Positions 3 through 63,843 of a stretch of 64,000 nt of DNA are shown here, piece after piece. The position numbers were made by a program, and so were the translations under genes. The notes under the pieces were generated by a model. It was not told where the DNA came from. It saw only the letters and a list, made by a program, of their open reading frames with translations, and did no database searches. The stretch spans positions 2,017,954-2,081,953 of the forward strand of contig NZ_CP065691.1 of the NCBI RefSeq assembly GCF_016027715.1. Reading direction: 5' to 3'. This DNA is from Lactococcus garvieae (GTDB taxonomy: Bacteria; Bacillota; Bacilli; Lactobacillales; Streptococcaceae). Each line of letters opens with the position of its first letter. The stretch's first letter is position 1.

Positions 3-401
3 ACTGCAGTATGTGTGGTGGCCTTTTTAACAGGAATCTTTGGCACACAAATCTACCTCTTGCTGGTTGACTTGTCAAGTTTGACAGGATTTATAGCATG
101 GTTAGGCATATCTGTGAGTCACATTCGGTTCCGCCGTGCTTTTATCGCTCAAGGCGGTGATTTAAGTAACCTACCTTATCAAGCAAAATGGTTCCCTTTT
201 GGGCCGATTATGTCTCTTATTATGACAGCTATGATTGTTATTAACTTAGACCCTGCGCTTCTTTTTAGTAGCCACTGGGGAGAAGGATTAGCAATGTATG
301 CGGCAATTCCTATTTTCTTAGCTCTTTACTTGGGTTATAAGTGGAAATACAACACCAAGCTCGTCCCACTCAAAGCGGTAGATTTGAGCCGGGATAAATG
401 A
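3..401 (+). CDS. Amino-acid permease, C-terminal part (APC family, LysP-like), cut by the left edge
   Basis: The reading frame is open to the first bases of the window, so this is the 3' end of a longer gene. About 132 residues are visible. They hold three or four hydrophobic segments separated by a short basic loop (SHIRFRRAF) and end in a hydrophilic tail. This matches the last membrane segments of APC-superfamily amino-acid permeases, and the loop resembles lysine permease LysP. The substrate cannot be settled from this fragment. The GTG at position 15 is an internal Val codon, not a start. The stop codon overlaps the probable -10 region of the next gene, so no terminator separates them. 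Confidence 0.75.
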   Translation, partial: TAVCVVAFLTGIFGTQIYLLLVDLSSLTGFIAWLGISVSHIRFRRAFIAQGGDLSNLPYQAKWFPFGPIMSLIMTAMIVINLDPALLFSSHWGEGLAMYAAIPIFLALYLGYKWKYNTKLVPLKAVDLSRDK

Positions 402-416
402 TAAAATGAAAGCATG
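399..416 (+). promoter_or_regulatory. Extended -10 promoter placing the transcript start on the ATG (leaderless)
   Basis: TG (399-400), one base, then TAAAAT (402-407), with 6 bases before the ATG at 414. There is no Shine-Dalgarno sequence in between. The predicted RNA would begin at or next to the start codon. Confidence 0.5.
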
Positions 417-1217
417 AAGAACATTAAATTTCTCTTTTTGCCTTTTCTGCTTATCTTAGGTTTTCTAAGCTTATCAGCCTGTGGCCTCAACCAGAAAGAA
501 AGCACATGGGATAGGATTAAAGACAGTAAAACCATTACTATTGGCTACGAGGCAGATTTTGCCCCTCTAACTTCATCTCAAAAAAATGAAAAACCAGTAG
601 GGTTCAATGTCGCTCTTGCTGAGGCTGTTTTTAAAAACTATGATATTCAGATTAACTGGAAAGCTCTTGACTGGTCAGCCAAAGAAAAAGCACTTCAGGA
701 GGGTAAAGTTGATTTGATATGGGGCCCATATACAGCTGATAAAACGCGTGAAAAAACGTTACTATTCAGTCAACCATATCTGCTCGCAAATGCTGTTTTA
801 CTTGTCACCAAAGACTCAGATATCCACAATATTGGTGATATGCATAATATAGCTGTTGGTGGACAAAAAGCCTCAGCAGTTTATGATTTATTCAGTAATT
901 ATCCTCATGTCTTAAAAAACATTGTAAAAGAGAATTTAATGGTACTGTATGATAAACCAAGTCAAGGGATATCTTCCTTAATGGCGGGAGAAATTCAAGC
1001 AATGCTTTTAGATCAAAAGTATGCCAAAACTTATTTGCAAGAGCACCAGCTTCAAGACAAGTTTAATATTCTTAACACGACCTATCCGCAGAAAGAATAT
1101 GTGGTAGCCGCGCGTAAAAAAGACAAAGAATTAATAAATAGAGTGAACAAAGGCTTAGAAGAAGTCCATCAGTCTGGCGAATTTAGTGAGCTATCTAGAC
1201 AGTGGTTTCAGCCTTAA
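414..1217 (+). CDS. Amino-acid ABC transporter substrate-binding lipoprotein (orphan)
   Basis: The 267-residue protein has a lipoprotein signal peptide: KN at the start, a hydrophobic stretch, and the lipobox LSAC with the lipidated Cys at residue 23. The rest is the bacterial extracellular solute-binding fold, family 3 (polar amino acids), with TITIGYEADFAPL near the start of the mature protein and GKVDLIWGPYTADKTREK in the ligand region. It should sit on the outer face of the membrane and capture an amino acid. No permease or ATPase gene lies beside it; the only neighbour is an APC permease, a different mechanism. It may serve a transporter encoded elsewhere. The ligand is not predictable here. 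Confidence 0.8.
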   Translation: MKNIKFLFLPFLLILGFLSLSACGLNQKESTWDRIKDSKTITIGYEADFAPLTSSQKNEKPVGFNVALAEAVFKNYDIQINWKALDWSAKEKALQEGKVDLIWGPYTADKTREKTLLFSQPYLLANAVLLVTKDSDIHNIGDMHNIAVGGQKASAVYDLFSNYPHVLKNIVKENLMVLYDKPSQGISSLMAGEIQAMLLDQKYAKTYLQEHQLQDKFNILNTTYPQKEYVVAARKKDKELINRVNKGLEEVHQSGEFSELSRQWFQP

Positions 1218-1223
1218 GATGAT

Positions 1224-1256
1224 AAAATAAAAAGAGCGAAAGCTCTTTTTATTTTA
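1224..1256 (+). terminator. Intrinsic terminator after the solute-binding protein
   Basis: Perfect 14-bp stem ending in AAGAGC, a GAAA tetraloop, then GCTCTTTTTATTTT. Confidence 0.85.
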
Positions 1257-1272
1257 TGAAAGAGGAATAGAA

Positions 1273-1869
1273 ATGAAATTTATAGCAATTGTAGGTACCA
1301 ATGCCAGCTTTTCTTATAATCGAAAGTTGCTGTGGTACATGAAAAAACATTTTATAGACGAAGCAGAGATTGAAGTTATTGAAATAGCTGGACTGCCGTT
1401 GTTTTCAGAAGACAATATGGACTTGCCAGAGCGAATTTTAGAAATTGCAGAAGCGATAGAAGCTGCAGATGGATTGATTATCTCAACTCCGGAATATGAC
1501 CACGCGATTACGGCAGCTTTAAAATCTTTATTGGAATGGCTCTCATGGGGTGCCTTGCAGCCAGTGGTCAACACCCCTGTCATGATTGTTGGTGTTTCTT
1601 TGGGTAAACAAGGCACCGTTTTTGCGCAGGAAAACCTCCGACAAATCCTATCATCTCCTGGTTTGGAAGCTTTTGTTTTACCGGCGAATCAGTTTTTATT
1701 AAGCCATGCTGCAGAAGCTTTTGATGCTGCGGGAAACTTAGTGGATAGACAGACGATTTCTTGGTTGGAACATTGCTTTAGGAATTTCAGCCTTTATACT
1801 AACAATCTAAAACCCCTCCGCCAGCTTATCGAAACCGATGCGGACACTGGAGCTTCTGAAAATGAATGA
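1273..1869 (+). CDS. NAD(P)H-dependent FMN reductase family protein
   Basis: A 198-residue flavodoxin-like protein. The start (KFIAIVGTNASFSYNRKLL) is the phosphate-binding loop of the NADPH-dependent FMN reductase family, and TPEYDHAITAALKSLLEW near residues 75-95 is the family's flavin/dimer signature. It should be cytosolic and reduce FMN or a flavin-bound substrate with NAD(P)H. The next gene, an ApbE-type FMN transferase, overlaps its end by 8 bases, so the two are very likely co-translated and handle flavin together. A start at 1273 follows AGAGG a few bases upstream. Confidence 0.82.
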   Translation: MKFIAIVGTNASFSYNRKLLWYMKKHFIDEAEIEVIEIAGLPLFSEDNMDLPERILEIAEAIEAADGLIISTPEYDHAITAALKSLLEWLSWGALQPVVNTPVMIVGVSLGKQGTVFAQENLRQILSSPGLEAFVLPANQFLLSHAAEAFDAAGNLVDRQTISWLEHCFRNFSLYTNNLKPLRQLIETDADTGASENE

Positions 1870-2821
1870 TTTTATTTCCCGAAAATATCAGGGTCTTGGC
1901 ACAGTGATTGAACTAAGTGTGCTTAGGACTGATAAAGTAAAAGATGTGGAAAAGCTTGACCAAGCTTATGAAGAAATTAAAAAGTACGAGGACTTATTCA
2001 CTGTGAATAAGTTGTACTCGGAGATAATAGCGGTAAACCAAGCTGCGGGAGTCAGGGCTATACCTCTCTCAGAAGATGTCTATTCCTTGACCAAAAAAGC
2101 TGTGCAAGTTAGTCAAGAACATTTTGGTTTTAATGCCAGTGTTGGACCGCTGGTCGACTTATGGCGCATTGGTTTTGCGGATGCTCGTCTTCCCTCAGAT
2201 AGGGAAATTCAAGAGGCACTTCGATTAATTAGTCCGGATGAAATCGTCTTAGATGATTCCAAAAAGTCTGTTTTTCTTCCTGAAAAAGGTATGTCTTTAG
2301 ATTTAGGAGGAATTGCTAAAGGTTATATTGCAGATAAGGTAGCAACATTTTGGAAAAATCAGGGTATTTCCACAGGTGTTATTAACCTTGGGGGTAATGT
2401 TTTATTTTTAGGTCGTTTTTTAACGAGAGAATGGCGGGTTGGTATCCGAAATCCACTGGAAAAGACGAAATCTTTGGTTCTCCAAGTACTGACAAATTCA
2501 AAATCAGCAGTAACTTCAGGTATTAATCAGCGTTATCTAGAGATAGAAGGGGAGACTTATCACCACATTATAAATCCCGAAACAGGTTATCCTCATGTGA
2601 ATAACTTAGCTAGTGTGACTATCTTTTCGCAAACTGCTGTGGATGGGGAGATAGAGGCGAAGCGCTTATTTTTTGCGGAGAATCCAGAGGAAGTTTTTTC
2701 TATAAATAGTTCAAAAATTCATGGTGCAATTTTGATTAATAAGGATCGGGAAGTAAAAATCCTTGGACTAAAGCCCAAGGATGTTAGATTAATAGATAAG
2801 AGTTTTAAAATTATAAGCTGA
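1862..2821 (+). CDS. apbE: FAD:protein FMN transferase (ApbE family)
   Basis: ApbE enzymes attach FMN covalently to a Thr/Ser of target flavoproteins using FAD. The 319 residues contain the family motifs: FNASVGPLVDLWRIG near residue 90, LDLGGIAKGYIADK near residue 150 and GVINLGGNV near 175, which build the FAD and Mg site. There is no lipobox or signal peptide, so this copy should act in the cytosol. I chose ATG 1862 rather than the upstream in-frame ATG at 1838, because GGAG at 1849-1852 is correctly spaced. It overlaps the FMN reductase gene. No obvious target with an FMN-binding domain lies in the window. Confidence 0.85.
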   Translation: MNDFISRKYQGLGTVIELSVLRTDKVKDVEKLDQAYEEIKKYEDLFTVNKLYSEIIAVNQAAGVRAIPLSEDVYSLTKKAVQVSQEHFGFNASVGPLVDLWRIGFADARLPSDREIQEALRLISPDEIVLDDSKKSVFLPEKGMSLDLGGIAKGYIADKVATFWKNQGISTGVINLGGNVLFLGRFLTREWRVGIRNPLEKTKSLVLQVLTNSKSAVTSGINQRYLEIEGETYHHIINPETGYPHVNNLASVTIFSQTAVDGEIEAKRLFFAENPEEVFSINSSKIHGAILINKDREVKILGLKPKDVRLIDKSFKIIS

Positions 2822-2840
2822 AAATCATTCAGCTTTTTTT
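2815..2840 (+). terminator. Intrinsic terminator after apbE
   Basis: AAGCTGA, loop, TCAGCTT followed by a run of T. It overlaps the last bases of the convergent gene. Confidence 0.8.
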
Positions 2841-4437
2841 ACTCTGGACGAGCATAGGAAGCGATCATTTGTTCAGCACATTTGAGTCCATCAATGGCAG
2901 CCGAAACGATACCACCTGCAAATCCGGCACCTTCACCCGATGGATAAATCCCTTGGGTTGAAATAGACTGGAAACTTTCCTCATCCCGATTGATACGAAC
3001 AGGTGAGGATGAACGTGATTCTACACCTGTCATAATGGCATCGTTCATAGCAAAACCTCTAATTTTTTTATCAAATCCTAGAAGGGCTTCTTTCATGGAA
3101 GAAGTGATATATTCAGGGAAAAGCTGACTTAAGTCGGTTGGGGTAACGCCTAAAGCATAAGATGGTGTAACTTTGCCTACATGAGTTGAAGGACGATTTT
3201 CAAGGAAATCGCCAACCAGTTGTGCGGGTGCTTTATAGGTTTTTCCGCCTAAAATAAATGCTTTTTCTTCAAGTTTACGTTGGAATTCCACACCAGCTAA
3301 GGGGTGATCTTGGCCAAAATCTTCAGGGAAGACTTGAACCAGCAAACCGCTGTTCGCATTTTCTTCAGAACGAGCGTGCTCACTCATACCATTTGTAACA
3401 AGCCGTCCTTCTTCAGAAGCTGCAGGTACGACAAGTCCTCCCGGGCACATACAGAAAGTATAAACGCCACGGCCTGAGCTAGCTTTATGTGTTAAACGAT
3501 ATTCTGCAGCACCCAGACGAGGGTGTTCAGCAAACTCTTTGTATTGAGCCTTGTTAATCAGACTTTGCGGATGTTCTATACGGACACCGACAGCGAAAGG
3601 TTTAGCTGTCATATTGATACCTTTATCATAAAGTTCAGCAAAGGTATCACGCGCACTATGTCCAATAGCTAGTACGGCATGATTGGAAAGAATTTCTTCA
3701 CCATTTTTAAGGATAATTCCTTGAAGTTTATTTTTTTCAATTAAGAAGGACTCAACTTGGCTATCAAAAAGAACTTGCCCGCCAAGGGCGATAATCTGTT
3801 CACGGATATTTTTCACAATATCGCGGAGCAAGTCTGTCCCCACATGAGGATGTGCCTTGTAGAGGATATCCTCTGGTGCACCAGCTTTTACAAACTCTTC
3901 CAAGACTTTACGCCCACGTAAATCTCGGACGCGTGAAGTCAGTTTTCCATCAGAGAAAGTTCCCGCTCCACCTTCACCAAACTGTACATTTGAAGCAGGA
4001 TTGAGTTTACCGTCTTTCCAAAATTCATCAATTGATTTTACGCGTTCTTCAACTTTTTGTCCGCGTTCTAATACGACAGGCTTATAGCCCATTTGTGCTA
4101 AAAGCAGAGCTGAAAACATACCGGCAGGTCCAAAACCAATCACCAATGGTCGATGTGCCATAGGTTCCGTACCAATCTGAGGTTTTTTATATTTCAAATC
4201 AGGAGAAGGAGAAACGTTTTTGATTTTTTTCTTGAGCAGTTTTGCTTCATCTTTAACTTCCGCATCGACAGTATAAATAAAATTGATTTCACCACGGTGG
4301 CGGGCATCAATTGATTCTTTATAAATACGGTAGCTGATCAAATCAGACTCCTGGATTTTTAATTTTTTCAAAAGTAAGTCTTTGACTTTGTCTACAGGCT
4401 CATCAATTGAAGTTTTTATTTGAGATATTCTAAGCAT
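2839..4437 (-). CDS. FAD-dependent dehydrogenase (COG2509 type)
   Basis: A 532-residue protein of the conserved NAD(P)/FAD-dependent dehydrogenase group COG2509. It has an N-terminal extension of about 90 residues, then the dinucleotide-binding motif VIGFGPAGMFSALLLAQMG with the acidic ribose-binding end VLERG. FGEGGAGTFSDGKL and the C-terminal GEGAGFAGGIVSAAIDG complete the FAD site. The substrate of this widespread group is not established. It is convergent with apbE and upstream of lysS in the minus direction. The ATG at 4437 lies downstream of the AGAGAAC region. Function beyond flavin oxidoreductase is not claimed. Confidence 0.8.
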   Translation of the reverse strand: MLRISQIKTSIDEPVDKVKDLLLKKLKIQESDLISYRIYKESIDARHRGEINFIYTVDAEVKDEAKLLKKKIKNVSPSPDLKYKKPQIGTEPMAHRPLVIGFGPAGMFSALLLAQMGYKPVVLERGQKVEERVKSIDEFWKDGKLNPASNVQFGEGGAGTFSDGKLTSRVRDLRGRKVLEEFVKAGAPEDILYKAHPHVGTDLLRDIVKNIREQIIALGGQVLFDSQVESFLIEKNKLQGIILKNGEEILSNHAVLAIGHSARDTFAELYDKGINMTAKPFAVGVRIEHPQSLINKAQYKEFAEHPRLGAAEYRLTHKASSGRGVYTFCMCPGGLVVPAASEEGRLVTNGMSEHARSEENANSGLLVQVFPEDFGQDHPLAGVEFQRKLEEKAFILGGKTYKAPAQLVGDFLENRPSTHVGKVTPSYALGVTPTDLSQLFPEYITSSMKEALLGFDKKIRGFAMNDAIMTGVESRSSSPVRINRDEESFQSISTQGIYPSGEGAGFAGGIVSAAIDGLKCAEQMIASYARPE

Positions 4438-4502
4438 AATTTGTTCTCTTATCTATTATAAGTGTTTTAAAATAAGACGGATATAAAACACTTTGTGATT
4501 GT

Positions 4503-4532
4503 AAAAACCCAGTCATTAGAACTGGATTTTTT
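4503..4532 (-). terminator. Intrinsic terminator of lysS
   Basis: CCAGT and ACTGG arms around a 7-base loop. Read on the minus strand, it is followed by a T run. Confidence 0.8.
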
Positions 4533-4535
4533 CTT

Positions 4536-6035
<1,500 letters not shown>

Positions 6036-6139
6036 CTATAAAAAAGTTTATATCATCCATATTTTAGCATAATTTTACGGCTTTTGACAGCTTATAATTG
6101 TGTTTTAAGAAAATGTTTTGAAGCCAAAGTATTCTCAAA

Positions 6140-6234: not shown

Positions 6235-6316
6235 ATTGCATTTGAGCACAAATAGTGTTACTTTGAATTTGTTATGAAAATCAAACATGAAAATACTACT
6301 AAAATTAATAAAAAAA

Positions 6317-6325: not shown

Positions 6326-6337
6326 AGTTGAGTTATC

Positions 6338-8478: not shown

Positions 8479-8497
8479 TGTTATAATAGTTGTCATG
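8479..8497 (+). promoter_or_regulatory. Extended -10 promoter, probable leaderless start of the yeiH gene
   Basis: TG (8479-8480), one base, TATAAT (8482-8487), then 7 bases to ATG 8495. No Shine-Dalgarno is present. Confidence 0.55.
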
Positions 8498-9502
8498 TTA
8501 AATAAGAAGATTATGCCAGGTTTAGGGCTCAGTTTTGTGGTTGCTTTAGTCAGCTACTTTTTAAATTTATTCGTTTTTAAAGGGCTGGGGGCCGCAACTA
8601 TTGCTATTTTGTTGGGCATTATTTTAGGAAATATTTACTTCAAACAGCCCACTCTCTTTGCTGGTACTGCGTGGTCAGAAAAGAAGCTTCTGGAGTTTTC
8701 AGTAATGTTTCTAGGAGCGACTGTTACTTTCCAAACGATCCAAAAGTTAGGATGGAACGGTATGAGCTTTATTCTTTTACAAATGGTATTGACGATAGCT
8801 TTTGTACTGTTCATCGGGAAAAAACTCGGATTTTCATCGAAAGTTAATGCACTGATGGCATCTGGAAATGCTGTTTGTGGATCTTCAGCTATTGCTGCAG
8901 TGGAACCTGTAATTGGAGCAGAAGACAAAGACAAGCGAACAGCGATAACGATGGTTAACCTTATGGGAACTGTCTTGATGCTCCTCTTACCTCTCTTAGG
9001 AACTTTTATTTTTGGGCAAAGTGACTTTTTACGTGGGGCACTGATTGGGGGAACGGTACAGTCTGTTGGGCAAGTTGTTGCTTCAGCAACCATGGTTAAT
9101 ACAGAAACAACCACTATGGCTACACTTTTTAAAATCATGCGTATCATTATGCTTGTTTTTGTTGTTCTTTATTTTGCCTATCAATCACGTCGAACAGAAG
9201 AAAAACCCAAGGGCCAAAGCGAGCAACTTAAAATCAAACGCCAAGCATTTTTACCTTGGTATGTGTTAGGCTTCATTATTCTGTGTAGCTTGGATACGCT
9301 TATCCAATTTCCTCAAGTTGTAACAGAAAGTGCCCGCTTTATCAGCAGTTGGTGCGAAATTATTGCCTTAGCTGCCATAGGGTTACGCTTAAATTTAGTA
9401 GAATTTGTGAGAGCCGGTAGAAAATTAGCCATTTATGGCTTGGCTGTCTTGGTTTTTCAAGTAGGCCTCGCTCTTATTTTGATTCGTCTATTATTAGCCT
9501 AG
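8495..9502 (+). CDS. YeiH/UPF0324 family membrane protein (putative sulfate exporter family)
   Basis: 335 residues with about 10 hydrophobic segments. The signatures LLEFSVMFLGATVTFQTI and SGNAVCGSSAIAAVEPVIGAEDKDKRTAITMVNLMGT are diagnostic of the UPF0324/YeiH family. The family is annotated as sulfate exporter by distant similarity; direct biochemical proof is limited, so the substrate is uncertain. The gene stands alone between kimA and thiI. Its start codon is reached directly from a -10 box without a ribosome-binding site. Confidence 0.8.
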   Translation: MLNKKIMPGLGLSFVVALVSYFLNLFVFKGLGAATIAILLGIILGNIYFKQPTLFAGTAWSEKKLLEFSVMFLGATVTFQTIQKLGWNGMSFILLQMVLTIAFVLFIGKKLGFSSKVNALMASGNAVCGSSAIAAVEPVIGAEDKDKRTAITMVNLMGTVLMLLLPLLGTFIFGQSDFLRGALIGGTVQSVGQVVASATMVNTETTTMATLFKIMRIIMLVFVVLYFAYQSRRTEEKPKGQSEQLKIKRQAFLPWYVLGFIILCSLDTLIQFPQVVTESARFISSWCEIIALAAIGLRLNLVEFVRAGRKLAIYGLAVLVFQVGLALILIRLLLA

Positions 9503-16456: not shown

Positions 16457-16475
16457 TGGTATAATATGTAGTATG
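16457..16475 (+). promoter_or_regulatory. Extended -10 promoter, probable leaderless start of pbp1B
   Basis: TG (16457-16458), one base, TATAAT (16460-16465), then 7 bases to ATG 16473. No Shine-Dalgarno is present. Confidence 0.55.
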
Positions 16476-18899
16476 AAAAAAGATCAAGACCCGTCAAAAG
16501 AACGTGCACGTGCACGTTTGCAGGCTAAGATGGAGGCAAAGCGTGCTCAAAATGCACAAAGAAGCGATAAAAAAACTCCAGAAAAGCCCTTAAAACCGAA
16601 AAAAGATCAATTGGATTCCAATGAAGAAAATAAAACGACTCTCCAAACTATTTTTTCTGTAGTGCGTGGTGTTGTCGTTATTTTTGGTGTTGTCTTTCTT
16701 TTAGTAGGTGTGTTTGGTGCGGCAGCAGGCGTTGGTTATTTTGCACGTCTTGTCGAAAAAACAGAAGTTCCAAGTAAAAAAGAACTTCTCGAACAGGTTA
16801 ATAATATACATGGCGTTTCCGTAATGAAATACAGCAATGGTGAAAGTATTTCTGATGTTTCTAGTGATTTGGTGCGGATAAATGTATCAAGTGGGGAAAT
16901 TTCAAACAATGTAAAAAATGCTCTCATCTCAACCGAGGACGAAACTTTTAAGACAAATAATGGTGTTGTTCCTAAAGCAGTCATACGAGGAATCTTAGGC
17001 GCTGTAGGTGGAGGAACCAGCTCTGGTGGCTCCACAATTACGCAACAGTTGGTCAAACAACAATCACTGGGAGACAATGTCACCTTCCAGCGTAAAGCGA
17101 GTGAGATTGTCTATGCGCTTCAACTCAATCAATATTTGAGTAAGGATGAAATCTTGACCAATTACCTTAATGTCTCTCCATTTGGACGGAACAACCAAGG
17201 TAAAAATATTGCTGGGGTACAAGCAGCGGCACAGGGGATTTTTGGAAAATCTGCTAAAGAGCTGACTGTGCCTGAAGCAGCCTTTATAGCTGGTCTGCCA
17301 CAGAGTCCGATCGTCTATTCACCTTATAATGCAGATGGTTCGCTCAAATCAAAAGAAATGCTTTCTTATGGGCTGGCCCGTCAACAAAACGTGCTGTTTA
17401 ACATGTATCGCGCAGGGTACTTGAATAAGGCAGACTATGAAAAGTACAGTGCAGTTGATATTTCAAAAGAATTCTTACCCTCAAAAACTCAAGACTCGAT
17501 TACACATGGCTACCTCTACAATGTTGTCTACAGTGAAGCTGTAGATCATGTTTATGATTATCTCATCAAGAGGGATAAAGTTTCTGCGACAGAACAAGGC
17601 AATGACAGTACGAAACAAAAATATCGTGAGCTAGCAGCTCAAGCCCTTCAAACAGGTGGCTATACTATCACCACAACTATCAATCGCGGCGTGCATGAAG
17701 CCATGCAAAATGCAGTTGCCCAATACGGCAGTATTTTACAAGATGGTACAGGAGAGGTTCAAACAGGGAATGTCTTGATGGATAACAAGACAGGAGCTGT
17801 ACTTGGCTTTATTGGTGGTTTAGATTATGCAACCAACCAAAACAACCATGCTTTTGATACAAAACGTAATCCAGGTTCTTCTATTAAGCCAATTTTGGCT
17901 TATGCTCCTGCAATTGACTTGGGACTTATTGGGTCAGCAAGTATGCTTAGCAACTATCCAGCAAGTTACTCTGATGGGACGCCAATCTTACACGTTGGAG
18001 AAACGGGGACAGGCATGGTAAGTCTTAATGAAGCTTTGGGTGTATCCTGGAATATACCTGCGCATTGGACATATCAAGCCATACTTGATTCTGGCAATAG
18101 CGTGGAACCTTATATGACGAAGATGGGCTATTACATACCTGACTATAGTGTGGAGTCTCTTCCTTTAGGAGGAGGGATTGAGCCAACAGTTGTACAACAT
18201 ACTAATGGCTTTCAAACTTTGGCAAATGGTGGAGTTTATGAGCCACATTATGTTGTACAAAGTATCAAAGATGATACAGGTAAAGATATTTACGAACATA
18301 AGAGTCAAGCAGAGCGCGTTTACTCACAAGCAACTTCAACAATTACCCAAAGTCTGTTACGTAATGTACTGACTTACGATGTCAGTCGACGTACGACGAA
18401 CTTCTTACAAGACTTGCAAGCTATCAATCCAACGCTTGCCAGCAGTGTAGACTGGACAGGTAAAACGGGTACCTCAAATGATTACGTGGATGGCTGGCTG
18501 ATGTTATCAACACCGAAAGTGTCTCTAGGTGGGTGGATTGGTCATGATGACAACACCTCGATGGCAAGTAAAACAGCCGCTGTGAATAACGGGACCTACA
18601 TGGCAAACTTAGTGAACGCGATAGCAGCAGCTGATCCAAATGTCTTTGGACCCGGTGAAAAATTCCCGGATCCAAGTAAAGATCCTGATATTATCAAGAG
18701 CACCGTTCTTAAGTCGACAGGTCAAAAACCTGGTACAGTAACTGGTGGAAAACTTAAAAATGTTAAAGTTTCGGGAGAAACAACCACAAGTTATTGGGCT
18801 AAAAATGGGGCATCTGTTACACAGTTCAAATTTGGTATTGGCGGAACAGAGGCAAACTATAATGATGCTTGGAGCAGGATTCTAGGTACTATTAAATAA
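16473..18899 (+). CDS. pbp1B: Bifunctional class A penicillin-binding protein (PBP1B type)
   Basis: An 808-residue enzyme that polymerises and cross-links peptidoglycan. A basic, Ala/Lys-rich cytosolic tail (about 1-60) is followed by one membrane segment (about 65-95). The GT51 glycosyltransferase has STEDETF near residue 153 and GGSTITQQLVK near 190. The transpeptidase carries SSIK (about 469), SWN and KTGTSND (about 665). All catalytic motifs are intact. It lies alone between tyrS and the MGMT pair and ends in a strong terminator. The gene name follows the overall domain layout; orthology to a given PBP1B was not computed. Confidence 0.87.
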   Translation: MKKDQDPSKERARARLQAKMEAKRAQNAQRSDKKTPEKPLKPKKDQLDSNEENKTTLQTIFSVVRGVVVIFGVVFLLVGVFGAAAGVGYFARLVEKTEVPSKKELLEQVNNIHGVSVMKYSNGESISDVSSDLVRINVSSGEISNNVKNALISTEDETFKTNNGVVPKAVIRGILGAVGGGTSSGGSTITQQLVKQQSLGDNVTFQRKASEIVYALQLNQYLSKDEILTNYLNVSPFGRNNQGKNIAGVQAAAQGIFGKSAKELTVPEAAFIAGLPQSPIVYSPYNADGSLKSKEMLSYGLARQQNVLFNMYRAGYLNKADYEKYSAVDISKEFLPSKTQDSITHGYLYNVVYSEAVDHVYDYLIKRDKVSATEQGNDSTKQKYRELAAQALQTGGYTITTTINRGVHEAMQNAVAQYGSILQDGTGEVQTGNVLMDNKTGAVLGFIGGLDYATNQNNHAFDTKRNPGSSIKPILAYAPAIDLGLIGSASMLSNYPASYSDGTPILHVGETGTGMVSLNEALGVSWNIPAHWTYQAILDSGNSVEPYMTKMGYYIPDYSVESLPLGGGIEPTVVQHTNGFQTLANGGVYEPHYVVQSIKDDTGKDIYEHKSQAERVYSQATSTITQSLLRNVLTYDVSRRTTNFLQDLQAINPTLASSVDWTGKTGTSNDYVDGWLMLSTPKVSLGGWIGHDDNTSMASKTAAVNNGTYMANLVNAIAAADPNVFGPGEKFPDPSKDPDIIKSTVLKSTGQKPGTVTGGKLKNVKVSGETTTSYWAKNGASVTQFKFGIGGTEANYNDAWSRILGTIK

Positions 18900-18956: not shown

Positions 18957-18993
18957 TTGTTTTTAAGAATAAACATGATAAAATAAATTCATG
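18957..18993 (+). promoter_or_regulatory. Promoter of the MGMT pair, probable leaderless start
   Basis: TTGTTT (18957-18962), 16 bases, TAAAAT (18979-18984) with an upstream TG, then 6 bases to ATG 18991. No Shine-Dalgarno is present. Confidence 0.55.
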
Positions 18994-19500
18994 AAGAAAG
19001 TTCTCTATAAAAATTATTTTGAGACACCACTGGGACAAATGGTAAGTATAACAGACTTAGAAAGACTTTACCTGCTAGAATTTCTTGAGCGACAAAATTT
19101 AGAAAAAGAATTAGAAAAACTAAAAGCTCTTTTTAAGAGGGAACAAAATGAACTTTCCACTCGTGTCGAAAAGGAAGTGGGGGAATACTTCAGAGGTGAA
19201 AGAAAGAGATTTGATTTGCCATTAGTTTTAGAGGGTACAGAGTTTCAGAAAAAGATTTGGCTAGAGGTAGTACAAATTCCTTTTGGGCAAACCCGGAGTT
19301 ATAAAGAAATAGCTCAAAAAATAGAGAACCCGAGAGCAAGCATAGCGGTAGGTTCAGCCAATGCTGCAAACCGTTATGCCATTATTATACCTTGCCATCG
19401 CTTAAAGAAAAGTACGGGCAAGTTAGCTGGATATGCTGCCGGGATTTGGCGTAAAGAATGGCTTTTGAATTTTGAGGAGGAAGTAGAAAATGACAGCTGA
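18991..19500 (+). CDS. ogt: Methylated-DNA--protein-cysteine methyltransferase (Ogt/AdaC-like)
   Basis: A suicide DNA repair enzyme that moves alkyl groups from O6-guanine to its own Cys. The 169 residues comprise an N-terminal accessory domain (about 1-85) and the MGMT core, with IIIPCHRLKKSTGKLAGY holding the acceptor Cys near residue 135. The segment just upstream, RASIAVGSANAANRYA, most resembles the Ada C-terminal domain. Aligned by eye, the Arg finger expected before AVG is Ile. It overlaps the next MGMT-like gene by 11 bases, so the two are co-translated. Confidence 0.85.
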   Translation: MKKVLYKNYFETPLGQMVSITDLERLYLLEFLERQNLEKELEKLKALFKREQNELSTRVEKEVGEYFRGERKRFDLPLVLEGTEFQKKIWLEVVQIPFGQTRSYKEIAQKIENPRASIAVGSANAANRYAIIIPCHRLKKSTGKLAGYAAGIWRKEWLLNFEEEVENDS

Positions 19501-21955: not shown

Positions 21956-21974
21956 TGTTAAAATTTTTTATATG
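21956..21974 (+). promoter_or_regulatory. Extended -10 promoter, probable leaderless start of the DUF4651 gene
   Basis: TG (21956-21957), one base, TAAAAT (21959-21964), then 7 A/T-rich bases to ATG 21972. No Shine-Dalgarno is present. Confidence 0.5.
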
Positions 21975-22259
21975 AAAAAATATTTGAAAGTTGGCTTGGG
22001 GGTCCTCGCTGGTATAGCTGGTGCGCAGGTACTCTATCAGGGCTACAAACATGTTGAAGAAAACTTGCGTGCAGAAGTTATCGAAGCTGTGCGTGAAGCT
22101 TTTGCTGACCGAGATATTCAAGCGGTCTGGATCTTTGAAGAAGCAGACCGTGGCGCCATTTACAAAGGCGGTATAATTCTTGGTGAAAACCAAAGCATTG
22201 ATTTTGAAATTGATGGGGAAACCTTAAAAATTACCGAATTAGGGGAGGAGTATTTATGA
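21972..22259 (+). CDS. DUF4651 small protein
   Basis: 95 residues. A Lys-containing start and a weakly hydrophobic segment (about 7-25, GLGVLAGIAGAQVLYQG) suggest an N-terminal anchor. A compact domain follows, with VWIFEEADRGAIYKGGIIL and an acidic end. It matches the DUF4651 family found beside thioredoxin-like ytpP in streptococci and lactococci. The function is unknown. It overlaps the thioredoxin gene by 4 bases (ATGA), suggesting coupled translation. Confidence 0.7.
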   Translation: MKKYLKVGLGVLAGIAGAQVLYQGYKHVEENLRAEVIEAVREAFADRDIQAVWIFEEADRGAIYKGGIILGENQSIDFEIDGETLKITELGEEYL

Positions 22260-29539: not shown

Positions 29540-29558
29540 TGCTATAATATATCTTATG
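29540..29558 (+). promoter_or_regulatory. Extended -10 promoter, probable leaderless start of tmk
   Basis: TG (29540-29541), one base, TATAAT (29543-29548), then 7 bases to ATG 29556. No Shine-Dalgarno is present. Confidence 0.55.
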
Positions 29559-30185
29559 AGTGGAATACTAATTAGCTTGGAAGGGCCAGATGGAGCTGGA
29601 AAAACAACAGTTTTACAAAAAATACTTCCAGAACTAGAGAGATCGCAATATAAAGTGGTCTCCACACGCGAGCCTGGGGGTGTGCGTGTAGCAGAAGAAA
29701 TTCGCAATATAATTCTCAGTACAGAGAATACGGAGATAGATAGTAAGACCGAGTTAATGCTCTTTGCAGCAGCAAGACGTCTACATATGCAAACCAAAAT
29801 GCTGCCTGCTCTTGAGGCAGGTAAGTTAGTAATTGTAGACCGATTTATTGATTCGTCTGTTGCCTATCAAGGTTACGGACGTGAACTTGGTGTTCAACCT
29901 GTAAACTGGCTTAATGAATTTGCAACAGATGGTCTTAAACCAGATTTGACATTATATTTCGATATTGATACAGATGTTGCACTTGAACGTATTATGAAAA
30001 ATAGAGCAGATGAGGTCAATCGTCTTGATTTAGAACGTGCAGACATGCATCGAAAAGTCAGAAAAGGCTATCTGGAAATCGTGAAAAACGAACCAGAGCG
30101 CTTTGTTACGATAGATGCTAGTCAAGAACTGGAAGCAGTTGTTGCAGAAGCATTATCTGTAATAAAAAATAGATTTCATTTGTAA
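29556..30185 (+). CDS. tmk: Thymidylate kinase
   Basis: 209 residues. P-loop [14 protein letters not shown] near residue 8, the DR(F/Y) motif [15 protein letters not shown] near 92, and the lid region are complete. It phosphorylates dTMP to dTDP. It is the first gene of the conserved tmk-holB-ricT-yabA-rsmI run, linking nucleotide supply to the replication clamp loader. The ATG follows a -10 box directly, without a ribosome site. Confidence 0.96.
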
Positions 30186-34060: not shown

Positions 34061-34086
34061 AAAGTGCCTAAGCACTTTTTATTTTT
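34059..34086. terminator. Bidirectional terminator between the solute-binding protein and the 59-codon gene
   Basis: AAAAAGTGC, CTAA, GCACTTTTT, with T runs on both strands. The minus-strand gene stops inside it. Confidence 0.85.
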
Positions 34087-34264
34087 AACAATGTCCGTCC
34101 ACGTTCTCATTAATCCAATATTGATTTTCCTCGTCAAAAACACGGAGATGAGGATTGTTGTGGATAAAAAGAAGAACATCTTCCCGGCTTAAACCGCTAA
34201 ACTTAACGGCTGCACCTAAAGTTACGACTTCCATATTTTCGAGAGCATTACGTAAATTTTCCAT
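34085..34264 (-). CDS. Small 59-residue protein, helix-turn-helix-like, leaderless
   Basis: I do not recognise a named family. The frame reads MENLRNALENMEVVTLGAAV, then KFSGLSREDVLLFIHNNP, then a strand-turn-strand HLRVFDEENQYWIN and a polar end. The order short helix, helix-turn-helix (AAVKFSGLSREDVLLFI) and small wing suggests a minimal winged-helix DNA-binding domain. It has its own promoter and shares a bidirectional terminator, which supports a real gene. There is no Shine-Dalgarno: TATAAT ends 5 bases before the ATG. The protein is acidic overall. Confidence 0.65.
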   Translation of the reverse strand: MENLRNALENMEVVTLGAAVKFSGLSREDVLLFIHNNPHLRVFDEENQYWINENVDGHC

Positions 34265-34275
34265 AGTTTATTATA
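34262..34275 (-). promoter_or_regulatory. -10 box abutting the ATG of the 59-codon gene
   Basis: Read on the minus strand: TATAAT (34275-34270), 5 bases, ATG. No ribosome-binding site fits. Confidence 0.5.
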
Positions 34276-34356
34276 GCTTTTTTTCCCAAATATGAGAAAA
34301 GAAAGAATAAATGTCTCGGTTTTTTAGGCAATTTGTCTAAAAAAAAGAATTTCTAC

Positions 34357-39792: not shown

Positions 39793-39811
39793 TGCTATAA
39801 TAGGAGCTATG
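39793..39811 (+). promoter_or_regulatory. Extended -10 promoter running into AGGAG and the helicase ATG
   Basis: TG (39793-39794), one base, TATAAT (39796-39801), AGGAG (39802-39806), two bases, ATG 39809. The AGGAG is too near the ATG, and would be upstream of the expected transcript start. Confidence 0.5.
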
Positions 39812-45128: not shown

Positions 45129-45199
<71 letters not shown>

Positions 45200-50551: not shown

Positions 50552-53556
<3,005 letters not shown>

Positions 53557-58754: not shown

Positions 58755-58760
58755 TCCCAG

Positions 58761-58798
58761 AAAAGTGGCTGTTTGGAAACAACCACTTTTCTTTTTTA
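58761..58798 (+). terminator. Intrinsic terminator after nifJ
   Basis: GAAAAGTGG with CCACTTTTC, inner TGTTT/AAACA pairing, then T. Confidence 0.88.
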
Positions 58799-58830
58799 TA
58801 CGTAGGAGTTAACATAAAAAGAGGTATTTT

Positions 58831-58839
58831 TGATATAAT
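58831..58839 (+). promoter_or_regulatory. cdaA operon promoter, extended -10
   Basis: TG, one base, TATAAT, about 33 bases before the GTG start, with AAGGAGG in between. Confidence 0.55.
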
Positions 58840-58871
58840 GGTAAGAAATAATTCAGTAAGGAGGACAGCGT

Positions 58872-59699: not shown

Positions 59700-60652
59700 T
59701 GAAAAATAATTTTTTCGCTTCAAAACTATTTACGTTACTGGCTTCTGTCTTCTTTGCTGTTATCTTGTTTTTCAACGCAAGTTCTGTTGCAGTGAGAAAC
59801 CAAGGAAACTCAACAACGGGCGAAGTTTATACAACGACGATTTCCAATGTTCCGATTGAAATCAAGTATAATACAGATGAATATTTTGCTAGCGGCTATA
59901 ACAATACTGCTAACGTTTACTTAACCAGTTATAATCGTGTTCAAATCAGTACAGAAGAAAACCCCGATTCACGGAATTTCTATCTGGTAGTAGATTTGTC
60001 GAATGCTAGTGAAGGGACAGTTACAATGCCTGTCCGTATCCAACAGCTCCCTAATGGGATAAATGCTCAGATTGAACCAACAACCTTGACAGTACGCTTA
60101 GAAAAGAAAGCCAGCGCTGAATTCAATGTTGCACCTTTGATTGAACAAGCACAACTGCCTGATGGCTTTAAAGTTAATGAAATCAAGCTAAGCCAAGAAA
60201 AGGTCAAGGTAACGGCGGGTGAAACAAGTATTAAGCAAATTCATGCGATACAAGCTGCCCTACCGAGTGATGCTTACTTAAATGATGACTACTCTGGTAC
60301 TGTAACGCTACATGCAGTGGATGCTGACGGTAAACTCTTGCCAGCTCAAATCAGTCCAGCAACAGTCCAAATGAAAGTGAGTGTGGAAAAACCTTCGAAA
60401 ACAGTACCTGTCAATGTTAAGAAAACGGGCACACTGGATCAAAGTCTTTCAGATATGAGGACGTCAATATCGCAAAAAACAGTGACAATTTCAGGAGAGC
60501 AAAGCGCTCTTGATAAAATTGATAGTGTAGATGCAACCGTGAATATATCAAATATCACGCAAAAAGAAACAGTAAATGTAGATATTCAAGCAGCTGGAGT
60601 AAGTGTTAAACCTAGTCAAATAGAAGTAACGTTGACTCCTAAGAAAAAATAA
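59699..60652 (+). CDS. cdaR: CdaA regulatory protein CdaR (YbbR repeats)
   Basis: 317 residues. A single N-terminal membrane segment (about 8-28) is followed by three extracellular YbbR repeats, for example [35 protein letters not shown] and [16 protein letters not shown]. It binds and modulates CdaA at the membrane. Between cdaA and glmM as in most Firmicutes. Confidence 0.93.
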
Positions 60653-60681
60653 TAGAGCAAAATAGAAAAGAGAAAAATAAA

Positions 60682-62043
60682 ATGGGTAAATATTTTGGAA
60701 CAGATGGTGTCCGTGGAGAAGCAAATGTTGAACTAACGCCAGAAATGGCTTTTAAACTCGGACGTTTTGGAGGTTATGTGCTTAGCCAACATGAGATTGG
60801 TACACCGAAAGTTTATGTTGCACGTGATCCACGTATCTCTGGGCAAATGCTCTCAACGAGTTTAATTTCTGGCCTCTTGTCTGTAGGTATCGAAGTCTAT
60901 GATTTAGGCGTGATTGCTACGCCTGGTGTAGCCTATCTAGTGCGTAAAGAAGAAGCATCAGCCGGTGTCATGATTTCTGCAAGTCACAATCCAGCTTTGG
61001 ATAATGGTATTAAATTCTTTGGTGCCGATGGCTTTAAATTGGATGATGATAAAGAATTAGAAATTGAAGCACTCATTGATGCTGAGAAAGACACACTACC
61101 TCGCCCTTCTGCTGAAGGGCTTGGTGTCCTACATGACTACAATGAAGCTGTTCGTAAATACCAAGCTTTCCTAAAAACAACAGCTGAAGGGGATTTTGAA
61201 GGCTTTAAAGTTGTTCTTGATACAGCCAATGGTGCTTCACATACATCTGCTCGTGCAGTTTTTGCTGATTTGAATGCAGAGTTAACCGTGATTGGGGAAA
61301 ACCCAAATGGTCTTAATATCAATGATGGAGTTGGTTCAACTCATCCTGAAAAAACAGCTGATACGGTTGTTGAAACAGGAAGTGACATTGGACTTGCCTT
61401 TGATGGAGATGCGGATCGTCTCATTGCTGTAGACGAAAATGGACAAATTGTTGATGGTGACAAAATTATGTTTATCGTGGGTAAATACCTGCTAGAGCAA
61501 GGAAGATTGGCAAAAGATACAGTTGTTACGACAGTAATGTCTAATCTTGGTTTCCACTTGGCACTTGAAGAAGCTGGAATGAATTCTGTAGTTACCGCGG
61601 TAGGTGACCGTTATGTCGTGGAAGAAATGCGTAAAAATAATTACAATTTTGGTGGCGAGCAGTCTGGTCACATGGTATTCTTGGACTATAACACAACAGG
61701 AGATGGTCAGTTATCAGCTATCCAATTGGTGAAAGTCATGCGCGAAACAGGCAAGAAATTATCTGAATTGGCTGCTGAAGTAACAATTTATCCGCAAAAA
61801 TTAGTGAATGTTCGCGTGGCAAATAATGCTGCCAAAGAAGGAGCGATGGATATTCCAGCTATTCGTGAAGTAATCTCCGAGATGGAAAAACAAATGAATG
61901 GTAAGGGTCGTATCCTTGTCCGCCCAAGTGGTACAGAACCACTTCTCCGTGTGATGGCAGAAGCTCCAACGGATGAAGAAGTGAATCATGTGGTTGATAC
62001 TATTGTTGATGTGGTAAAAGATGAAATCGGTGTAAAACTTTAA
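60682..62043 (+). CDS. glmM: Phosphoglucosamine mutase GlmM
   Basis: 453 residues. [14 protein letters not shown] at the start, the active-site phospho-Ser in [18 protein letters not shown] near residue 100, the metal loop AFDGDADRL near 240 and the C-terminal [14 protein letters not shown]. It interconverts glucosamine-6-P and glucosamine-1-P for peptidoglycan precursors, and can inhibit CdaA in related bacteria. Last gene of the operon. Confidence 0.97.
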
Positions 62044-62073
62044 AAAAAGAGATTCATATGAATCTCTTTTTTT
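62042..62073 (+). terminator. Intrinsic terminator of cdaA-cdaR-glmM
   Basis: AAAGAGATTC, ATAT, GAATCTCTTTTTTT. Confidence 0.9.
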
Positions 62074-62108
62074 ACTCACGTTTCTTATTATTACTAAAAC
62101 AATAAGTA

Positions 62109-62117
62109 TGTTAAAAT
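62109..62117 (+). promoter_or_regulatory. Promoter of the EIIA gene, extended -10
   Basis: TG, one base, TAAAAT, about 60 bases before the ATG. Confidence 0.5.
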
Positions 62118-62179
62118 AGAATTACACAAAGCATGAAGGTTTATTGCGCAATTATAAATTACTTAAAGGAGGTTATGGG

Positions 62180-62686
62180 ATGTTTAGTAAGAGTCATAAA
62201 AATAAAATGTTTAAAGAAGATGTCACAATTTATGCTCCCATGGATGGAGAAATCATTGATTTAACACAAGTTCCTGAAGAAATTTTTGCTAAAAAACTAA
62301 TGGGTGAGGGCTACGCTATTGAGCCTGAAGTGCGCGGTACAAAAGCAACCATATATAGCCCAGCAAGTGGTGAAATCACTATTTGTCAAGGGCATGCTGT
62401 AGGTTTACGCCGTGCAGATGGACTTGAACTTTTTCTTCATATTGGGATTGACACAGTGAGTTTGAATGGTGAGCCATTTGATATAAGCTTAAAGATTGGC
62501 GACTTTGTACAAGGTGGAGAAAAAATTGGTAGTGTCCGATGGCATAAAATACAAGAAGCTAATCTCCCTTTGACTACCACTGTATTAATCACAAATACAT
62601 CCAGTGCTTTAGAAAATTTACAAGTCAACTATGGGTCATCCAAGTCGGGGAAAGCAATTGGAGAAGCAATAGCTAAGAAAAAATAA
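62180..62686 (+). CDS. Stand-alone PTS glucose-family EIIA
   Basis: 168 residues. VTIYAPMDGEIIDLTQVPEEIF starts the EIIA-Glc fold, and the phosphorylated His lies in LELFLHIGIDTVSLNG near residue 87; the partner His is in CQGHAVGL. It takes phosphate from HPr and gives it to a IIB. No IIBC is fused or adjacent, so it probably serves a transporter encoded elsewhere. I chose ATG 62180, with AGGAGG 7 bases upstream, over an in-frame start at 62144. Confidence 0.88.
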   Translation: MFSKSHKNKMFKEDVTIYAPMDGEIIDLTQVPEEIFAKKLMGEGYAIEPEVRGTKATIYSPASGEITICQGHAVGLRRADGLELFLHIGIDTVSLNGEPFDISLKIGDFVQGGEKIGSVRWHKIQEANLPLTTTVLITNTSSALENLQVNYGSSKSGKAIGEAIAKKK

Positions 62687-62707
62687 AAGCAGTTTACTGC
62701 TTTTTTT
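62685..62707 (+). terminator. Intrinsic terminator after the EIIA gene
   Basis: AAAAGCAG, TTTA, CTGCTTTTTTT. Confidence 0.85.
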
Positions 62708-62762
62708 GATGATTTAAATAAAATTATAGAGTACATTCAAAGCCAGTGTGCTCGTTTTTTTT

Positions 62763-62780
62763 TGCTATAATAAAACTATG
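62763..62780 (+). promoter_or_regulatory. Extended -10 promoter, probable leaderless start of tsaE
   Basis: TG (62763-62764), one base, TATAAT (62766-62771), then 6 bases to ATG 62778. No Shine-Dalgarno is present. Confidence 0.55.
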
Positions 62781-63233
62781 AAATTAAAAGCTAATGAAGA
62801 AAAGATGCTGGCCTTTGCTAAGCGTTTAGGAGGTCTACTCCAAGCACAGGATGTTATTGTGTTAACAGGAGAACTAGGTGCAGGGAAGACTACCTTTGTT
62901 AAAGGCTTGGCTTTAGGATTAGATATTCAACAGATGATTAAGAGCCCAACCTATACCATTGTACGTGAATATGAACAGGGAAAACTGCCCTTGTATCATA
63001 TGGATGTCTATCGTGTTGGAGATGATCCAGACAGTTTTGACTTGGATGATTATCTTTTTGGCGAGGGCGTTTCTGTTATTGAGTGGGGAGAACTTTTAGG
63101 TAAAGACTTGCCTGACGACTATCTTGAAGTCCAGCTCGATAAATATGCAGAGGGTTTTGCAACAGACGCTCAGCGTGAGTTAGAACTCATCCCTCATGGC
63201 CAACGCTATGAAAATTTATTAGGAGAACTATGA
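62778..63233 (+). CDS. tsaE: tRNA threonylcarbamoyladenosine synthesis ATPase TsaE
   Basis: 151 residues. Walker A LTGELGAGKTTFVKGLA near residue 34, then the family signatures KSPTYTIVREYEQG and HMDVYRVGD. VIEWGELL follows. It powers the TsaBDE complex that forms t6A37 in tRNA. I use ATG 62778; an in-frame upstream start (62748) lies before the promoter. It overlaps the GNAT gene by 4 bases. Confidence 0.95.
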   Translation: MKLKANEEKMLAFAKRLGGLLQAQDVIVLTGELGAGKTTFVKGLALGLDIQQMIKSPTYTIVREYEQGKLPLYHMDVYRVGDDPDSFDLDDYLFGEGVSVIEWGELLGKDLPDDYLEVQLDKYAEGFATDAQRELELIPHGQRYENLLGEL

Positions 63234-63745
63234 ATACAGAATTACTTATACGTGAAGCGACCAAAGAAGATAGCTCCAAGCTGATAGCATTTCTTGACCA
63301 GATAGGAAAAGAAAGTCATTTCTTAACCTTAGATGAAGCGGGAATATTAATGTCAGAAACTCAGATGGAAGACTACCTTGATCAAATTTCACAAAAGGAT
63401 AACAATGCTTATTTTTTAGCTTTTCTAGGTGAGGAAATTGCTGGTGTTTTGCATATTACAGCTGATTTTCATTATCGAATTCGTCATATTGGAGATATTT
63501 TTATTGCTGTAGCTTCAAAATTTCAAGGTTATGGGGTGGCTTCTTTTCTTTTTACTGATGCTCTAGAATGGGTTGAAGAAACAGGAGTTATAAAACGCTT
63601 AGAACTGACTGTTCAAAAACGAAATAAAGCAGCTATCCATTTGTATGAAAAATTTGGTTTTGAGCTTGAGGCTATCCAGAAATATGGGGCACGCGATGAA
63701 GATGGGCATCTCATAGATGTTTGTGAAATGGTTAAGTTTTTTTGA
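63230..63745 (+). CDS. GNAT-family N-acetyltransferase
   Basis: 171 residues. The acetyl-CoA loop is seen in VASKFQGYGVASFLFTDAL near residue 103, and the C-terminal AAIHLYEKFGFELEAIQ is the family motif B. The substrate is unknown; the closest layout is that of ribosomal-protein or antibiotic acetyltransferases. It follows tsaE by an ATGA overlap and precedes the LCP gene, an order kept in many streptococci and lactococci. Confidence 0.88.
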   Translation: MNTELLIREATKEDSSKLIAFLDQIGKESHFLTLDEAGILMSETQMEDYLDQISQKDNNAYFLAFLGEEIAGVLHITADFHYRIRHIGDIFIAVASKFQGYGVASFLFTDALEWVEETGVIKRLELTVQKRNKAAIHLYEKFGFELEAIQKYGARDEDGHLIDVCEMVKFF

Positions 63746-63768
63746 AAAAATTCCAACCAAAAAGAAGG

Positions 63769-63797
63769 AAAAGGAGGCCATATTTGGTCCCCTTTTT
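63769..63797 (+). terminator. Probable terminator after the GNAT gene
   Basis: AAAAGGAGGCCA pairs with TGGTCCCCTTTT with one mismatch, followed by T. Confidence 0.65.
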
Positions 63798-63806
63798 GTA
63801 TTTATG

Positions 63807-63843
63807 TTGTTTATTTGCAAAATTTTGATATAATTTTATTATG
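63807..63843 (+). promoter_or_regulatory. Promoter of the LCP gene, probable leaderless start
   Basis: TTGTTT (63807-63812), 16 bases, TATAAT (63829-63834) with an upstream TG, then 6 bases to ATG 63841. No Shine-Dalgarno is present. Confidence 0.55.

Follow-up and report, generated by a model that had tools for sequence, protein, structure and literature searches.

Leaderless messenger RNAs (mRNAs) have been described repeatedly in close relatives of the organism studied here. In Lactococcus cremoris, where leader lengths are bimodal and the metagene profile peaks at the start codon, about 13% of the mRNAs are reported to be leaderless (PMC10986495, citing van der Meulen 2016), and in three streptococci the reported share is 8-9% of the mRNAs or operons (PMC4448216, PMC6431027, PMC6212727). 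More specifically, 70 leaderless operons (9%) were listed for S. pneumoniae (PMC6212727), 78 cases for S. agalactiae, all with AUG and 90% starting at the A (PMC4448216), and 67 for S. pyogenes, of which 54 (81%) are common to S. agalactiae and 39 also to S. pneumoniae (PMC6431027). According to Zheng 2011, leaderless genes are predicted in the Lactococcus-Streptococcus clade from a TAtAAT signal, with an extremely strong TG in Lactococcus, and this 'TA-led' signal was not found in Enterococcus and Lactobacillus (PMC3160421). The regulation of leaderless translation has been described as mostly global and as poorly understood (PMC9031893). Here we analyze eleven genes of Lactococcus garvieae in which a -10 box directly precedes the ATG. 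They lie in a stretch of 64,000 nucleotides (nt) of contig NZ_CP065691.1 (positions 2,017,954 to 2,081,953), which is referred to as the window and within which all positions below are counted.

We consider it very probable that these genes are expressed from extended -10 promoters as ordinary leaderless mRNAs, of a kind known in bacteria. A housekeeping-type promoter with an extended -10 box (TGnTATAAT or TGnTAAAAT; no TG at 34264) would lie 6-7 nt, and once 5 nt, before the ATG. RNA polymerase would start at the A of the AUG and yield an mRNA without 5' leader and without Shine-Dalgarno (SD) sequence, and the ribosome would bind the 5'-terminal AUG directly. In this scheme we infer the transcript 5' ends in L. 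garvieae and the position of each gene as the first of its transcript, and rely on the literature on leaderless mRNAs for initiation at a 5'-terminal AUG. The proposal appears well supported at the level of DNA by the exact spacing, the pyrimidine at position -1, the absence of SD sequences, the exclusive use of AUG and the conservation among orthologues. The same observations favor the view, already put forward in a preliminary description of the window, that transcripts would begin at the A of the AUG.

Promoter boxes at the start codons

On direct reading, the eleven coordinates, the TATAAT or TAAAAT hexamers and the 5-7 nt spacing of that description all proved right. TATAAT stands before seven of the starts and TAAAAT before four, at a distance of 6 nt (414, 18991, 62778 and 63841), 7 nt (8495, 16473, 21972, 29556, 39809 and 50585) or, at 34264 on the minus strand alone, 5 nt. 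A TG one base 5' of the hexamer, which gives the TGn plus TANAAT of an extended -10 promoter, is found at ten of the eleven sites, as had been described, the exception being 34264. The best SD match between -20 and -4 (the region scanned for window sites and called genes) amounts to 0 nt at nine starts and to 3 nt at two (16473 and 39809). This agrees with the earlier statement that a usable SD is lacking and that the AGGAG before the putative helicase gene at 39809 stands too close; indeed, this AGGAG registers as an SD only when the last 4 nt are counted. All eleven start codons are ATG, and all eleven are preceded by C or T. The placement of the -10 box, the lack of an SD and the AUG start are the marks of bacterial leaderless (TA-led) genes.

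The frequency of the arrangement is far above chance expectation. The window has 10 occurrences of TG.TA.AAT at 6 or 7 nt from an ATG, compared with a mean of 0.61 under a first-order Markov model (largest value 5; none of 300 simulations as high), and TATAAT at 4-8 nt occurs 15 times, against 4.4 in shuffled sequences (none of 100 reaching this number). When relaxed to TA[TA]AAT at 5-7 nt, the motif is found 17 times where 8.5 are expected (3 of 300 as high); as this is only twofold, the TG and the exact spacing carry most of the signal. In the whole genome TGnTATAAT (TGNTATAAT) precedes an ATG by 5-8 nt at 90 sites, against 6 in the reversed control, with 9, 57, 13 and 11 sites at 5, 6, 7 and 8 nt, respectively, and with 0 in the control at 6 nt. 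The genomic excess sits mainly at 6 nt, with 7 nt, and this is the distance expected for a promoter of such type when transcription starts at the A of the ATG. A genome-wide comparison of the kind proposed along with the first description, here with a reversed control, yields a strong excess. A further 57 sites with 6-7 nt, all outside the window, were fetched for analysis of their reading frames, and frames of at least 45 codons open at 53 of them.

The density within the window is another matter. When a strict rule is applied that requires TG, a spacing of 6-7 nt and no more than one mismatch in the hexamer, 8 of 57 called genes qualify in the window and 10 of 381 in a 400-kb sample of the same genome (Fisher p = 0.0008, a value that counts as after the fact, since the window was picked because an earlier reader had seen the pattern there). 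The claim that about one gene in five belongs to the group therefore holds for the window and not for the genome: the density is a local excess.

Indications that transcription starts at the AUG

A pyrimidine before the ATG is expected if transcription starts at the A. C or T occupies position -1 at 57 of the 70 sites with 6-7 nt, at 10 of the 20 sites with 5 or 8 nt and at 61 of 127 SD-led ATGs, and it does so in 89 of the 108 orthologue rows (described below) that were scored as leaderless. Both the orthologue scoring and the SD-led comparison set used the region from -17 to -4 for the SD.

The spacing profile points in the same direction. Among 438 called genes of a 464-kb sample, with starts chosen crudely by longest frame and best SD (which bears also on the SD-led comparisons and on the leadered control mentioned below), the extended hexamer is found at 6 nt before the ATG nine times, at 7 nt nine times and at 10-16 nt not once, and hits resume from 17 nt. 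Before GTG or TTG the same sample has four hits at 12-16 nt. Moreover, the arrangement at 6 nt is confined to AUG: across eight Lactococcus genomes GTG and TTG together occur 32 times versus 21 in the control, and ATG 414 times versus 8. Among SD-led genes 34 of 161 start with a codon other than ATG. In the leaderless frames the second codon specifies Lys or Asn in 30 of 53 cases, and in the SD-led ones in 36 of 127 (p = 0.0006).

The genes concerned

The eleven genes, each given from its promoter box to the end of its frame or of the window, are the following.

399..1217, plus strand: TGA TAAAAT, hexamer 402-407, 6 nt, ATG at 414; putative amino-acid ABC transporter substrate-binding protein (below curated cut-offs)
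8479..9502, plus strand: TGT TATAAT, hexamer 8482-8487, 7 nt, ATG at 8495; putative YeiH-like membrane protein (below curated cut-off)
16457..18899, plus strand: TGG TATAAT, hexamer 16460-16465, 7 nt, ATG at 16473; PBP1B (1122 bits, cut-off 1225)
18976..19500, plus strand: TGA TAAAAT, hexamer 18979-18984, 6 nt, ATG at 18991; Ogt-type DNA methyltransferase
21956..22259, plus strand: TGT TAAAAT, hexamer 21959-21964, 7 nt, ATG at 21972; protein of 95 amino acids (aa) without family match
29540..30185, plus strand: TGC TATAAT, hexamer 29543-29548, 7 nt, ATG at 29556; thymidylate kinase, tmk
34085..34278, minus strand: TATAAT without TG, hexamer 34270-34275, 5 nt, ATG at 34264; protein of 59 aa
39793..41149, plus strand: TGC TATAAT, hexamer 39796-39801, 7-nt spacer AGGAGCT, ATG at 39809; putative DEAD-box RNA helicase (below curated cut-offs)
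50569..52552, plus strand: TGA TAAAAT, hexamer 50572-50577, 7 nt, ATG at 50585; NAD-dependent DNA ligase, ligA
62763..63233, plus strand: TGC TATAAT, hexamer 62766-62771, 6 nt, ATG at 62778; tsaE
63826..64000, plus strand: TGA TATAAT, hexamer 63829-63834, 6 nt, ATG at 63841; extends past the end of the window; 'LCP' is the unchecked label of the preliminary description

Ten of the eleven proteins were searched against NCBIfam, the one at 63841 lying outside that search. Ogt, Tmk, LigA and TsaE score above the curated cut-offs; the substrate-binding protein, the YeiH-like protein, PBP1B and the helicase score strongly but below them. For the protein at 34264, of which 49 of the 59 residues were searched, no family match was found in NCBIfam. 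At the gathering thresholds of Rfam a tRNA-Cys gene at 45129-45199 is the only RNA gene in the window, and no structured RNA other than tRNA was detected there.

Outside the window, a family scan covered 50 of the 57 fetched frames and gave matches within the limits set for 35 of them. Above the curated cut-offs are dephospho-CoA kinase, KsgA, SmpB, UvrC, MutY, AcpS, FolD, LspA, MenG, RlmB, RsmD, RecX, RuvB, ArgR and ArgS; below them are MenA and, from cut frames, MurT, PBP3 and TruA. Several HAD phosphatases are also among these predicted leaderless frames, as are ksgA and smpB (L221 and L223), the products of which act on ribosomes or in ribosome rescue. As the leadered control consists of 27 genes without annotation, some with wrong starts, it is not a fair one, and functional enrichment is therefore not claimed.

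Conservation among orthologues

Orthologues were compared for nine of the eleven genes. In a set of eight loci (six named Lactococcus species and two metagenome-assembled genomes) the arrangement before tmk is kept in seven, once with TATACT, the exception being a metagenome-assembled genome with 45% identity. It is the same in all three orthologues found of the gene at 21972 (L. petauri, L. formosensis and L. cremoris) and is present in two of the three helicase loci found, that of L. termiticola being SD-led. In all three other loci found, an ogt adjoining pbp1B has TG plus TATAAT at 6 nt. For the gene at 34264 the arrangement is kept at the matching ATG in four of the seven orthologues found; these four, the closest, have TATAAT at 6 nt, likewise without TG, and in two further ones TATAAT stands at 6 nt from a different ATG, a few codons 5' of the matching one. 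Hexamer and spacing are conserved while the flanks diverge. When plasmids were searched for the tmk promoter, no match was obtained.

A family-wide set was scored for seven genes (six window genes and ksgA) in up to 44 genomes per gene, our own genome included; for ligA it comprised 39 genomes of the order, 30 of them with the locus. The genera of the family are denoted g1 to g10, where g1 is Lactococcus and g5 is taken as Streptococcus on account of its number of species. Leaderless starts make up 54/62 in g1, 22/36 in g9, 14/21 in g2, 9/21 in g3 and 9/41 in g5. They were found in none of the 49 starts of g4, g6, g7, g8 and g10 together, nor in any of the 11 ligA starts from other families. 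The arrangement, for which the preliminary description had named conservation as a check, is kept in the majority of the Lactococcus orthologues and to some extent in four other genera.

The individual genes differ in their distribution. Leaderless PBP1B is found in 8/8 g1, 7/7 g9 and 4/4 g3 rows and in 0/8 of g5; leaderless tmk in 8/8 g1, 5/5 g2 and 7/7 g9 and in 0/8 of g5; leaderless helicase in 4/8 g1 and 5/5 g2 and in 0/26 other rows; and the leaderless state of the gene at 63841 in 8/8 g1. For ligA the score is 17/17 in g1, g2, g3 and g5 and 0/2 in g4 and g6. The tsaE gene scores 6/8 in g1, 7/7 in g9, 4/4 in g3, 8/8 in g5 and 0/5 in g2, which makes 25 of 42 rows in four genera, and ksgA scores 6/8 in g1, 3/5 in g2 and 0/29 in other genera. 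A feedback link through ksgA, considered as a candidate, was lowered on account of this poor conservation outside g1 and g2. The hexamer is TATAAT in all rows scored leaderless for tmk (20/20) and PBP1B (19/19), and the weaker TA(A/G)AAT (TAAAAT or TAGAAT) in all 17 such rows of ligA. The starts counted as not leaderless include 39 that fit neither rule, among them four g3 tmk starts with TA(G/A)AAT at 6-7 nt and no TG; the label 'SD' is a loose one, needing only 4 nt. In g2 the tsaE starts L072 and L076 have neither an SD nor a -10 box passing the rule, and are perhaps coupled to the upstream gene.

Some rows were left out: for tsaE G065 (broken frame) and G020 (no match); for pbp1B G065 (internal stop), G020 and G069 (no match of orthologue grade), G023 (no hit in the stretch) and every g2 genome, five in all (other penicillin-binding proteins only, 35-38% identity); for tmk G069 (no match); for ksgA G065 and G061 (the latter without match); and for the helicase G030, G069, G061, G032 and G065, as well as a second, stop-containing copy of G066. 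The pbp1B rows of g4, g8 and g10 rest on weak alignments (32-38% identity), and the rows for the gene at 63841 and for ogt represent 10 and 4, respectively, of 30 loci searched. The nine genomes without a ligA locus are G047, G042, G049, G037, G008, G038, G015, G016 and G005. In three of these, G008, G015 and G016, a single open frame of 689-696 aa contains a ligA alignment split into two blocks around residues 386-391, suggestive of an insertion, and G005 has ligA fragments, some of which contain stops.

Spread across the order and origin

In 295 genomes of the family the number of TGNTATAAT sites at 6 nt from an ATG is 36-62 per genome in g1 (26 in one genome that is 71% complete), 44-96 in g2, 35-51 in g9, 20-24 in g3 and, by eye, about 9-41 in g5, and it is 0-6 in g4, g6, g7, g8 and g10. 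Elsewhere in the order, 102 genomes from eight further families have 0-12 such sites each, where the controls have 0-15, and two of the three highest counts outside the family include repeated copies of one site. One such genome, G346, has a repeated element with TGGTATAAT at 6 nt before the ATG of a 16-codon frame (L318 on the minus strand, start at 74 of the reverse strand; L319, start at 79). This frame ends just 5' of, and in the same reading frame as, a frame labeled transposase-like by eye; five identical sites are listed, of which one was read along with a one-base variant. The 16-codon frame may encode a leader peptide, itself leaderless, that belongs to a mobile element. In G347 there are seven copies of one TGGTATAATTAAATCATG site, and the two that were read (L320, position 82, and L321, position 81) are followed by a frame of 8 codons only.

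Orthologues that are not leaderless offer a hint as to how the state may change. In ligA of g6, and in tmk, the helicase gene and some PBP1B genes of g5, the same kind of promoter lies further upstream, with an SD between promoter and ATG. We infer from this that the states could switch by lengthening or shortening of the stretch between -10 box and ATG, or by a new promoter. In the ligA tree, which takes in g1 to g6, the other families form one side (support 100/99) and the family branches as (g6,(g4,(g5,(g3,(g1,g2))))); the 17 leaderless rows are grouped with 100/100, and g4 is placed with 87/74. Since ligA is leaderless in 17/17 rows inside this clade and in 0/13 outside, its distribution fits one gain. 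The ksgA tree (no outgroup, midpoint root) places g4, g7, g8 and g10 on one side and leaves g6, in which 0/14 rows are leaderless, unresolved among the leaderless-bearing genera, so that g6 may have lost the state. Thus, the leaderless state looks derived for ligA, and less surely so for the family as a whole.

Alternative explanations

One could extend this into a functional scenario, in which the ancestor shared by the Lactococcus- and Streptococcus-like genera acquired leaderless initiation. Genes would then have taken it up one at a time, chiefly those for maintenance enzymes of low output (DNA repair, rRNA and tRNA modification, ribosome rescue, cofactors, wall), so as to buffer or raise the synthesis of these enzymes when SD-led initiation falls. 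Taken jointly this is unlikely: the first half, a gain by fusion of extended -10 box and AUG, has some support from the ligA counts and tree, and the buffering half would draw on the predicted gene list without a fair control. Equally doubtful, if not slightly more so, is a distinct and coordinately regulated translation class, favored when canonical initiation falls through stress, ppGpp, IF3 or changes in 16S rRNA. In its favor, the predicted set includes ksgA, rsmD, rlmB, truA, smpB and tsaE, which all act on ribosomes or tRNA. Moreover, leaderless translation in E. coli has been linked to IF2/IF3, initiator tRNA and ppGpp (PMC9031893), and common regulation was suggested from the conservation in three streptococci (PMC6431027). 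Against this, the MazF model is described as not reproduced by others (PMC9031893), and a leaderless pbp2A reporter of S. pneumoniae is reported to give the same output with or without ribosome binding site (PMC6212727). Membership of the ribosome-maintenance genes was compared for two of them, and the 9/42 leaderless rows of ksgA, in g1 and g2 only, speak against an old conserved ribosome-feedback set, the other gene being tsaE with its 25/42. A stress-responsive class would have little behind it here. The 'distinct translation class' of the preliminary description stands in the ordinary sense, as leaderless mRNAs are known to start translation unlike SD-led ones, and does not stand as a new class, since such genes have already been reported in Lactococcus and Streptococcus.

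Two further possibilities deny the leaderless state itself. The boxes could be chance matches in AT-rich DNA, the genes being read from upstream promoters with SD-independent starts; the merely twofold excess of the loose motif would suit this. It is very improbable in view of the excess of the extended motif in window and genome, the empty zone at 10-16 nt and the hexamer and spacing that are kept while the flanks diverge. The other possibility, that the true starts are internal SD-led codons behind a promoter with an ordinary short leader, deserves just as little credence. An in-frame ATG, GTG or TTG does occur within 40 codons in nine of the ten plus-strand genes (the set that was scanned), and two internal codons (16530 and 62859) lie behind a weak AGG or AGGA, but by eye no strong SD precedes the internal codons. 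Moreover, orthologous proteins align from residue 1 at the predicted ATG for tmk, ligA, the helicase and PBP1B in Lactococcus, and for tsaE in the four nearest genomes.

Several observations weigh against the reading of these genes as leaderless. Of the 57 fetched frames 11 run off their stretch and 4 are shorter than 45 codons. The site at 34264, with its 5-nt spacer and no TG, is the least certain of the eleven, and at 39809 AGGAG lies within the spacer. The orthologue comparison covers the nine genes from 16473 to 63841; tsaE is SD-led in two of eight g1 rows, and four of the eight Lactococcus helicase orthologues (L153-L156) have neither an adjoining -10 box nor an SD. The genes were picked as leaderless in this genome, so that the fall with distance is partly ascertainment, and the scoring admits every in-frame ATG that has a suitable -10 box, which favors the leaderless label; the same permissive scoring still gave 0/60 in the five other genera and the other families.

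Relation to known leaderless systems

The analysis reveals no new mechanism, and the leaderless class is already known in the genus Lactococcus. Nevertheless, a real signal with named genes aids the annotation of start codons, as these genes have no SD. In addition, the analysis provides a set of promoter-AUG fusions, conserved in several genera, in which ligA, tmk and tsaE provide clear leaderless and leadered cases in related species that are useful for the study of evolution.

Among the closest described systems is that of L. cremoris, which belongs to the same genus and for which bimodal leader lengths with an empty short-leader zone are reported (PMC10986495). The arrangement is visible in L. 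cremoris DNA before tmk and the orthologue of the gene at 21972, whereas the orthologue of the gene at 34264 is SD-led there, unlike in L. garvieae. The empty zone in our spacing profile resembles the reported lack of leaders of 4-14 nt (PMC10986495), although 5' ends were measured in that work and the present comparison concerns spacing in the DNA of another species. As in the TA-led genes described by Zheng 2011, a Pribnow box with a strong TG stands just before the start (PMC3160421), and the spread of TGNTATAAT across the order agrees with that study for Lactococcus and Streptococcus, its Oenococcus-Leuconostoc clade being pooled here with other families. For bacteria at large Zheng 2011 favors loss of an ancestral leaderless state (PMC3160421), whereas here 0/49 starts of five other genera of the family and 0/11 ligA starts of other families are leaderless. 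Finally, the presumed Streptococcus (g5) shares the leaderless state of tsaE (8/8) and ligA (1/1) with L. garvieae, but not that of tmk, PBP1B, the helicase and ksgA.

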